A DNA stretch of 60,636 bases, taken from a virus. Below the pieces are notes generated by a model. The model was not told where the DNA came from. It saw only the letters and a list, made by a program, of their open reading frames with translations, and did no database searches. Location: positions 1-60,636 of the IMG/VR virus record IMGVR_UViG_3300042908_000332; one strand, written 5' to 3'. Made by a program: the position numbers and the translations under genes. Below are positions 1 to 16,654 of this stretch, piece after piece (the stretch's first letter is position 1; each line of letters begins with the position of its first letter).

Positions 1-52
1 CCCCGACTAATGGATTTGGAATCCATTGTGCTACCAATTACACCAATGACGC
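1..52 (-). tRNA. tRNA-Trp (anticodon CCA), 3' part cut by window edge
   Basis: Read on the minus strand from 52, the sequence folds as the first 52 positions of a tRNA: acceptor strand GCGTCAT, then TG, a D arm with GTGT/GCAC stem and AATTGGTA loop, a perfect 5-base-pair anticodon stem ATGGA/TCCAT with loop TTCCAAA, then a short variable region and GGGG starting the T stem. The anticodon CCA reads UGG, so tRNA-Trp. The T loop and 3' acceptor strand lie beyond the left edge and cannot be checked. Confidence 0.9.
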
Positions 53-5668: not shown

Positions 5669-6150
5669 TACTTAGGTATTGTGATTTGTATTGTCTCTGA
5701 TCCACTCTTCTTAATCACAGCAGGCTCAACTACTACGCCATCGTTATCAATCAACTGGGCAACTGACATAGCCTGAATCATCTGCTTCTCGATTTCTTTC
5801 TGACGTTCTTTAAGCTGTGTGATTTGGTCATTTATCTCAGACCATTCATCGTTATGGGAGTAGTCATAGGTAGTAGGAGTATTCTTAACAACAACAGAGC
5901 AACCTAATACTTTTTGATCTTTATCAAACTTATACGCATCCTTGATAGCATAGTGCTTTAGTCCGTTCATGATTTGATCAGCAATTTCTGCGACACCCTT
6001 AGCTTTAACGTAAGCTTCAATTGGGTCTTCGTAGCCTCCATCAATAGAGGTCTTTACGATTTCGTTAGCTATATTAGAAAGGTTAGCCTTAGACAAATTA
6101 TCCAAGGCTATAACCATTCCTGTGCTATCTTCTTTAAAGATATCAATCAT
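5668..6150 (-). CDS. Hypothetical protein next to the annealing protein
   Basis: 160 residues. It is helical with a coiled-coil section (EINDQITQLKERQKEIEKQM, about residues 104-123) and a C-terminal beta strand pair ending ETIQITIPK. I do not recognise the family. It shares one base with the Rad52-type gene, so it is translated right after it and could be a partner in recombination, as small coiled-coil proteins next to phage annealing genes often are. That is inference from position. Confidence 0.65.
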   Translation of the reverse strand: MIDIFKEDSTGMVIALDNLSKANLSNIANEIVKTSIDGGYEDPIEAYVKAKGVAEIADQIMNGLKHYAIKDAYKFDKDQKVLGCSVVVKNTPTTYDYSHNDEWSEINDQITQLKERQKEIEKQMIQAMSVAQLIDNDGVVVEPAVIKKSGSETIQITIPK

Positions 6151-7765: not shown

Positions 7766-8098
7766 TTAAGGTAAATCATACCCTGTTCTATCTAAGATTA
7801 ATTTCATTAGATATGCGCAGCTGTCCATCTGTTCCTCTAGCAAGTGCATAAGGAAATCATCGTAGTTGTTTTCAGCTAGTGTTGTACCGTACTTACTGAT
7901 GCCTGCTTGACTACGCTCATCAAACTTTTTCTTAAGTACTTCAATTACAGGATCGGTAATGGTTTCTACATTTACAGGTTTCTCAGGTGCATTCATTCTA
8001 TCAAGGTATCCGTGACTAACATTAGTGTACAACTTTTCTACACCATCGTTAAACTTTTTTTTCATTGCTTCTTCCCAAGCTTTATTCCAATTATCCAT
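7766..8098 (-). CDS. Phage protein with KYG...EE motif, possible nucleotide hydrolase
   Basis: 110 residues from the ATG at 8098 (MDNWNKAWEEAMKKKF). The C-terminal part, RSQAGISKYGTTLAENNYDD then HLLEEQMDSCAYLMKL, follows a pattern common in phage all-alpha nucleotide hydrolase-like proteins: KYG, a loop, then EE..D..YL. I cannot name the family with certainty. The chosen start overlaps the upstream gene by eight bases; a start 21 bases further up is possible but would overlap more. Confidence 0.65.
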   Translation of the reverse strand: MDNWNKAWEEAMKKKFNDGVEKLYTNVSHGYLDRMNAPEKPVNVETITDPVIEVLKKKFDERSQAGISKYGTTLAENNYDDFLMHLLEEQMDSCAYLMKLILDRTGYDLP

Positions 8099-15261: not shown

Positions 15262-15294
15262 AAAAGAAATAGGCGCACCAATTACGATACGCCT
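15262..15294 (-). terminator. Possible attenuating terminator
   Basis: On the minus strand AGGCGTATC (15294-15286) pairs with GGTGCGCCT (15279-15271) over nine positions with two G-T pairs and a six-base loop, followed by ATTTCTTTT. It sits between the 25-residue membrane gene and the lipoprotein gene, so it may lower expression of the downstream genes. Confidence 0.5.
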
Positions 15295-15870: not shown

Positions 15871-16125
15871 TTACTTTGTGCTTTTTATCCAAAGTTCTTT
15901 TGATAATAGACCTTTTTGTATTGATAATTCTGCGGCTTCCTTCAGTATGCCTTTGCCTGAGAAGTCAAGACCGCTTATGTATTCGCCCCATTTGCCAAAC
16001 CTTGCAATTACAGTTGGTCTCCTGCCTTGAGCGCAAAAGTACAGGTCGTAGTCAGTTCCATCCCTTGTTACTGAATCTAAATGAGTGCAGTTGTCGCAGT
16101 CGTGTTCGTGAAATACTTTTTTCAT
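15871..16125 (-). CDS. Small putative metal-binding protein
   Basis: 84 residues from the ATG at 16125 (MKKVFHEHDCDNCTHLDSVT). The opening HEHDCDNC plus a later C (YDLYFCAQGRRPTVIARFG, about residue 32) looks like a one-and-a-half zinc ribbon, a pattern seen in small Bacteroidota proteins. Two upstream methionines in frame lie inside the hammerhead ribozyme region and I reject them. Its ATG is 23 bases downstream of the predicted ribozyme cleavage site, so its mRNA may start with the cleaved 5' end. Confidence 0.65.
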   Translation of the reverse strand: MKKVFHEHDCDNCTHLDSVTRDGTDYDLYFCAQGRRPTVIARFGKWGEYISGLDFSGKGILKEAAELSIQKGLLSKELWIKSTK

Positions 16126-16142
16126 TGGTAGATAAATTAATT

Positions 16143-16225
16143 GGTTAAGACTCATAAAAAAAAGGGGATGCACCAATATAGTACACCCCCTGGAGTTTCG
16201 TCCATTTAGGACTCATCAGTTAACC
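16143..16225 (-). ncRNA. Hammerhead ribozyme (type I) with terminator hairpin inside stem III
   Basis: On the minus strand the complete motif is present. Stem I: GGTTAA (16225-16220) with TTAACC (16148-16143). Core CTGATGA (16219-16213). Stem II: GTCC (16212-16209), loop TAAAT, GGAC (16203-16200). Core GAAA (16199-16196), whose last A belongs to stem III: ACTC (16196-16193) with GAGT (16153-16150). The nucleotide at 16149 is C17, so cleavage falls between 16149 and 16148. Stem III encloses a GC-rich hairpin followed by eight T residues. The stop codon of the 142-residue gene lies directly before stem I. Every conserved position of the class is kept; activity is inferred. Confidence 0.88.
16156..16191 (-). 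terminator. Intrinsic terminator nested in the hammerhead
   Basis: Minus strand AGGGGGTG (16191-16184) pairs with CATCCCCT (16170-16163), one G-T pair, 13-base loop, then a run of eight T (to 16156). It would end the transcript of the 142-residue gene; only read-through RNA would contain the 3' strands of the ribozyme. Confidence 0.85.
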
Positions 16226-16654
16226 TTAGATTGCGGCAGTCTTTTTGTTTTGTGCCTCAACTTTTGTTTTCGTTACGGCTAATTTGTTGAACTTTGCAAG
16301 TACGTTGATGCCGTCCCATGTAGAATATAAAGCTTTTGGCTTCTTTGTAATTTCAGCTAGAAACTCGATGTAAGACGGCATTTTACTTTTGCCTAGCACT
16401 AGCTTGACATTATCGGCAATTTCTCCCTGTGCCTTGTTCAATCGGTTATAAACTGCGCTTGGGCTTTTGTCCTCGAGCATAATCAAGGTATTGACTAAGC
16501 TTTTGAGTTCGGCTAAGTTAAGCCCCTCAGCTTGTTGCTTAGTTTTTAGCGCATCTAAGCGCATCATTTTTTTGTCAAAAGTTGACAATTTTGTAGCCTC
16601 TACAATTTTAGTAGTTGTTACTTTTTTCGCTGTTTTGTTTTGTGTTGCTTTCAT
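16226..16654 (-). CDS. Basic hypothetical protein flanked by RNA elements
   Basis: 142 residues, lysine and alanine rich, predicted helical. Start MKATQNKTAKKVTTTKIVEA and end TKVEAQNKKTAAI are disordered-looking basic tails around a helical core (RLDALKTKQQAEGLNLAELK, then YNRLNKAQGEIADNVKLVLG). It could bind nucleic acid; no family recognised. The gene is first in the leftward arm: upstream lies a tRNA-like element (16691-16760), directly downstream a hammerhead ribozyme with nested terminator. An A-rich leader (AAACAAAACAA) precedes ATG. Confidence 0.7.
   Translation of the reverse strand: MKATQNKTAKKVTTTKIVEATKLSTFDKKMMRLDALKTKQQAEGLNLAELKSLVNTLIMLEDKSPSAVYNRLNKAQGEIADNVKLVLGKSKMPSYIEFLAEITKKPKALYSTWDGINVLAKFNKLAVTKTKVEAQNKKTAAI

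Follow-up and report, generated by a model that had tools for sequence, protein, structure and literature searches.

Hammerhead ribozymes are known from gene junctions of phages and prophages, where they have been proposed to cut phage transcripts (Perreault et al. 2011, PMC3088659; PMC6155905). For several of those described by Perreault et al., cleavage was demonstrated both in vitro and in E. coli, and the role proposed for them was to divide long phage transcripts into mRNAs of gene length (PMC3088659). In a review, the function of prokaryotic and phage hammerheads was called an open question (PMC6155905).

The stretch of DNA analyzed here (the window; 60,636 nucleotides, positions 1 to 60,636 of IMG/VR record IMGVR_UViG_3300042908_000332) comes from an uncultured tailed phage encoding a terminase, a portal, a DnaB-like helicase, an Erf-like protein, RadC, GP88, and exonucleases. 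No close phage was found in the annotated phage collection by DNA, by portal, or by the first gene of the related contig L324, and the terminase had only distant matches there, to large myophages. A tRNA cut by the contig end lies at positions 1 to 52 (minus strand), its anticodon loop suggesting CCA (Trp).

The sole hammerhead found in the 60.6-kb record resembles those of Perreault et al. in its core, its type I layout, and its location, which is between small phage genes and immediately ahead of a start codon. It differs from them in that its stem III holds a hairpin and a T-run; the word terminator is absent from that report (PMC3088659). The invariant bases and the type I arrangement (stem I open, stems II and III closed) are shared with Rfam clan CL00010, whereas stem III covers 46 bases where 13 to 17 are usual and the score falls below the gathering score. 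The enclosed structure is like an intrinsic (Rho-independent) terminator in having a G+C-rich hairpin directly before eight T residues, and a similar hairpin stands alone in a more distant relative; unlike an ordinary terminator, it is enclosed by ribozyme stem strands, so that read-through would complete a self-cutting RNA. Taken as a whole, the element is probably a leaky intrinsic terminator inside an active type I hammerhead, located at the stop codon that closes the first gene of an early operon.

RESULTS

Architecture of the junction element

Read base for base, positions 16225 to 16143 of the minus strand form a complete type I hammerhead with all elements present (Table 1). The original prediction had placed all conserved hammerhead parts on this strand, and every part and coordinate was correct on direct reading. 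After ATC TAA, which ends the upstream gene, the order is GGTTAA CTGATGA GTCC TAAAT GGAC GAA ACTC C AGGGGGTGTACTA TAT TGGTGCATCCCCT TTTTTTT AT GAGT C / TTAACC AATTAATTTATCTACCA ATG, where the slash marks the predicted cleavage point. The invariant core (CUGANGA, GAA, A15.1-U16.1, and H17) is complete and is surrounded by three stems of 6, 4, and 4 pairs, stem I being open-ended. With regard to a possible contact between stem I and loop II, an A flanks stem I on both sides and loop II has five bases of the form T...T, as in most phage hammerheads. The nested hairpin is stable, G+C rich, and directly followed by the T tract, as in intrinsic terminators; the first T of the tract is also the partner of the A at the start of the hairpin. 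Together they were the best terminator-like site on either strand between positions 8000 and 24000. The operon contains another terminator-like hairpin, AGGCGTATCGTAATTGGTGCGCCT followed by ATTTCTTTTC, at 15294 to 15271 (minus strand), which has no hammerhead.

Table 1. Features of the junction and its flanking genes (window coordinates)
Feature	Position	Strand	Basis or remark
Type I hammerhead ribozyme, whole element	16143..16225	minus	Sequence; match of covariance model R1 at 16229-16139
Stem I, 5' strand GGTTAA	16220..16225	minus	6 pairs with 16148-16143
Conserved core C3-A9, CTGATGA	16213..16219	minus	Sequence
Stem II GTCC / loop TAAAT / GGAC, 4 pairs	16200..16212	minus	Compensated to GTCT/AGAC in L003
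Conserved core G12-A14, GAA	16197..16199	minus	Sequence
Stem III, 5' strand ACTC	16193..16196	minus	Replaced by other pairings in L004, L324
Hairpin nested in stem III, 13 pairs, 3-base loop, -19.5 kcal/mol	16163..16191	minus	Kept in L002, L003, L324
T8 tract; with the hairpin, intrinsic-terminator-like site	16156..16163	minus	Sequence
Stem III, 3' strand GAGT (U16.1 at 16150), 4 pairs including A15.1-U16.1	16150..16153	minus	
C17	16149	minus	Predicted cleavage 16149/16148, as expected from the hammerhead scheme
Stem I, 3' strand TTAACC; predicted 5' end (5'-OH) of downstream mRNA	16143..16148	minus	
Upstream gene, 142 aa, first of leftward early operon	16226..16654	minus	ORF call; homologues in L002, L003
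Downstream gene, 84 aa, unknown function	15871..16125	minus	ORF call; 98% identical protein in L004

The protein encoded upstream was 99% identical in contig L002 and 91% identical in contig L003 and had only a weak match to PHROG 15227. Its stop codon, TAA (16228 to 16226), ends on the base preceding stem I and abuts the ribozyme, and the ATG at 16125 begins 23 bases past the predicted cleavage point. No Bacteroidota-type TTTG/TANNTTTG match was found near the junction, and sigma-70-like sites were no commoner than in shuffled sequences; a promoter of its own for the second gene was rejected on these grounds. In L002, L003, and contig L004, a gene of about 57 to 60 aa (57 aa in L004) that is absent from the window directly follows the hammerhead; in L004 it separates the hammerhead from the 98% identical downstream gene. 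Judged from these contigs, the gene content beside the element is mosaic.

Conservation and recurrence of the nested hairpin

L002 and L003 carry the same element, with stem III and the nested hairpin kept. The window and both contigs have retained every base of the core and all 14 pairs, and stem II of L003, which also differs in its loop, shows a compensatory change. In L004, stem III is ACACGA/TCGTGT and encloses a related hairpin followed by only three T. The hammerhead of L324 has stem III ACGCGAA/TTTGCGT stacked on GGGGTGTAC-TAT-GTATGCCCC and then T5, and its downstream genes match the order in the window (73-aa, RadC-like, 89-aa, 102-aa, and 119-aa proteins and GP88). Stems are thus kept by compensatory change (stem II in L003, stem III in L004 and L324), the family-level figure for compensation being partly a product of construction. 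The T-runs are T8 in the window, T3CT4 in L002, T4CT3 in L003, and T5 in L324, a C breaking those of L002 and L003.

The more distant contig L207 has downstream homologues in the same order as the window. At its syntenic junction, GGGGGTGCGTAATTGTGTCCCC (GGGGGTGCG-TAATT-GTGTCCCC) is followed by T6, and no hammerhead was found after the first gene there. The hairpin and T-run therefore constitute a feature of the junction in their own right, and the ribozyme has been either added to them or lost from around them. Homology of the first gene of the window with those of L324, L004, and L207 was rejected, since the similarity was N-terminal only (hhalign probability, 27%); synteny consequently rests on the downstream genes.

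Nested terminator-like structures recurred elsewhere in phage contigs. A second family of 15 sequences (alignment A2), found by scans that included one for hammerhead-like cores followed by T6, has compensated stem III variants (ACAA/TTGT, ACAAA/TTTGT, ACGA/TCGT, and ACGAA/TTCGT), enclosed hairpins of the types GCGCA/TGCGC, GGGCA/TGCCC, and AGAGGCT/AGCCTCT and their relatives, and a T-run in all 15. Position 5453 of contig L170 is a further case, with T8. Among 31 distinct stem III arms selected for length irrespective of T-runs, 5 contained a terminator, compared to 0.065 expected from shuffled interiors and 0 in the reverse complement, although the 31 are not all independent because some share ancestry. 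One pattern scan of cellular genome contigs did not find an element of the second family; only two loci in that scan passed the hammerhead filter, L292 (CPR2 MAG) and L305. Ten CANQND contigs (L290, L299 to L304, L306, L308, and L309) represented an interspersed repeat of a Clostridia MAG (Lapin-012 bin87) containing CTGATGAG...CGAAAC, in which hammerhead stems were looked for and none were found. The stem III arms of the hammerheads at L100:6380 (minus strand), L111:4155 (minus strand), L077:7032 (plus strand), and L078:2505 (plus strand) span 58 to 76 bases and have contents other than a terminator.

These data bear on whether the enclosed hairpin terminates transcription or is an elongated stem III of an active hammerhead, shielding the upstream mRNA at its 3' end after cleavage, with little or no termination. 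The latter is consistent with the three T of L004, which show that the terminator part is not indispensable, and with the absence of a qualifying T-run from 26 of the 31 long stem III hairpins, a set in which T-runs were not selected for. It does not account well for T-runs 3' of G+C-rich hairpins that are far commoner than in shuffled interiors and absent in the reverse complement, for their retention through compensatory change in the second family, or for the hairpin and T6 of L207 that stand without a hammerhead; we regard it as rather unlikely. The terminator half of the original prediction gained from the same comparisons, through the similar ribozyme-free hairpin at the L207 junction and a nested hairpin and T-run in two or more further groups of phage contigs.

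Predicted folding of the ribozyme

In a nearest-neighbor model, the hammerhead fold was less favorable than the ensemble by 4.05 kcal/mol in the window, by 4.2 kcal/mol in L002, and by 3.6 kcal/mol in L003, in all of which stem III has just 4 pairs beside a large internal loop. In six other elements tested, the difference was only 0.5 to 0.8 kcal/mol and the hammerhead was the minimum-energy fold. The competing fold counts against easy cleavage of this copy, as a warning and not a refutation, because tertiary contacts within the hammerhead core are not part of the model. The original prediction that read-through RNA cleaves agrees with the order of the parts, and is less certain for this copy than had been implied, the competing fold being predicted to be about 4 kcal/mol more stable.

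Alternatively, the terminator could be functional and the hammerhead around it weak or dead, a decaying relic. That the competing fold is favored by about 4 kcal/mol in the window, L002, and L003 only, and that L207 manages without a ribozyme, would fit such decay. The intact core and full set of 14 pairs in these three sequences, with the compensated stem II of L003, argue against it, and the tertiary energy of the core is outside the folding model; we consider a relic improbable and retain an active hammerhead enclosing a leaky terminator as the preferred reading.

Recognition as a hammerhead

When the whole window was dinucleotide-shuffled 300 times, the strict motif (6, 4, and 4 pairs, with stem III contents of at most 150 bases) occurred twice, both strands included. 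A covariance model, R1, was built from 59 other phage hammerheads with a short stem III, the window being excluded. R1 scored the window element at 64.3 bits (E = 3.4e-13, default filters); with filters off, the local match scored 40.8 bits (E = 2e-7), and no other site in the window passed an E value of 1. A pattern demanding only the core and stem II matched 119 places with sufficient flanks in viral contigs, of which 73 had at least 6 pairs in stem I and at least 4 in stem III, compared to 0.3% with shuffled flanks.

No Rfam model matched the window at the gathering threshold, so the element does not count as a hammerhead by Rfam score; the only match (RF00008, 22.5 bits) was out of register. 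The original prediction had named such an outcome as grounds for its own rejection. Rfam likewise missed ordinary phage hammerheads in L097, L113, and the cultured Agrobacterium phage OLIVR1 (L336), all of which were recovered by R1 or by the motif scan. The test itself is therefore unsound, and the Rfam failure is a limit of models that are too narrow, not a defining feature of the element. Recognition by an independent model and homologues that keep their stems through compensatory changes upheld the hammerhead half of the prediction. The notion that the core is a chance match and the element only a terminator, to which the Rfam result might seem to lend weight, was rejected as extremely improbable given the shuffles, the flank control, the E value of R1, and four related contigs holding homologues with compensatory changes.

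Phage hammerheads at other gene junctions

Among 304 distinct hammerheads, the upstream stop codon ended at or inside the element in 167, most commonly as TAA at the end of stem I or TGA within CTGATGA. The distance from the cleavage point to the ATG had a median of 23 (quartiles, 21 and 29). This geometry of stop and start codons supports gene-by-gene cutting of mRNA in phages; pairing percentages in this set are partly by construction, because the search patterns demand core and pairing. Hammerheads numbered 1 in the window, 14 in G012, 7 in G013, and 1 in OLIVR1. An extreme gene-by-gene case was G012 (39.8 kb, the record of L100), with its 14 all on one strand between 10.9 and 35.3 kb.

Conserved hairpin ahead of the first gene

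A tRNA-like structure precedes the first leftward gene of the window (16760 to 16691, minus strand), with a counterpart in L003 at about 5870 to 5945. It scored 17.1 bits with the Rfam tRNA model (threshold, 29), and ARAGORN reported none. Its acceptor GGTTCA/TGAACC becomes GGTGCA/TGCACC in L003, its T-arm is also kept, and its "anticodon" loop has 10 bases, TGAAATAAYT. Before the corresponding first genes of other contigs (approximately L004:5239-5307, L324:5691-5760, and L207:10742-10810) lies a hammerhead with a hairpin enclosed in stem III; these hairpins share the loop TGAAATAATT and have covarying stems (GCAACT/AGTTGC, AGCAAGT/ACTTGCT, and GGGTGAA/TTCACCC). On this comparison, the conserved hairpin seems to be held by a hammerhead in some phages and by a tRNA-like element in others, one substituting for the other. 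A broader interpretation of TGAAATAAYT beside tRNA-like 3' halves was discarded, as it mixes tRNA-like and tmRNA-like 3' ends with chance.

DISCUSSION

From the parts, their order and spacing, and their conservation, we infer termination in the host, cleavage, and an effect on mRNA levels. A polymerase leaving the first gene would make the 5' half of the ribozyme, followed by the hairpin and U-tract. Some transcripts would stop at the T-run; lacking C17 and the 3' strands of stems III and I, these would stay uncut. Read-through RNA would gain the missing strands, fold into the complete hammerhead, and cut itself between 16149 and 16148. By layout, with the 3' strands beyond the T-run, only read-through RNA could do so. 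Cleavage would release the genes from the second onward as an mRNA of their own, beginning with a 5'-hydroxyl and a leader of 23 bases. Both routes would give the mRNA of the first gene nearly the same protected 3' end, the cleaved end lying only 7 to 14 bases beyond the stops at the T-run. In this arrangement, the first gene of the operon would be followed by a leaky terminator, and any transcript escaping it would be cut.

In the literature searched, which covered hammerheads in connection with terminators, prophages, and phages, no report of a natural terminator nested in a hammerhead was found. The original prediction knew of no stem III enclosing a terminator at a gene junction; that part stood, and the arrangement appears not to have been described before. 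Any uniqueness of this junction did not, as the sequences point to occurrence in several lineages.

The function suggested is one defined 3' end for the upstream mRNA whether or not the polymerase stops, with the downstream mRNA always detached. Termination and cleavage would compete for the same RNA, so that changing one predicts the amount of the other. Tentatively, and with some doubt, such elements may form a class of phage regulators in which self-cleavage is decided by termination at an enclosed U-tract and stem III is a general slot for functional hairpins. If so, termination could be tuned by antitermination, nucleotide supply, or translation of the upstream gene, the stop codon of which is adjacent to the ribozyme or within it. 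The same stem III slot would also accommodate the other conserved hairpin, which precedes the first gene and has the loop UGAAAUAAYU. A single site would both set the amount of downstream mRNA and ensure its complete release by cleavage with a 5'-hydroxyl.
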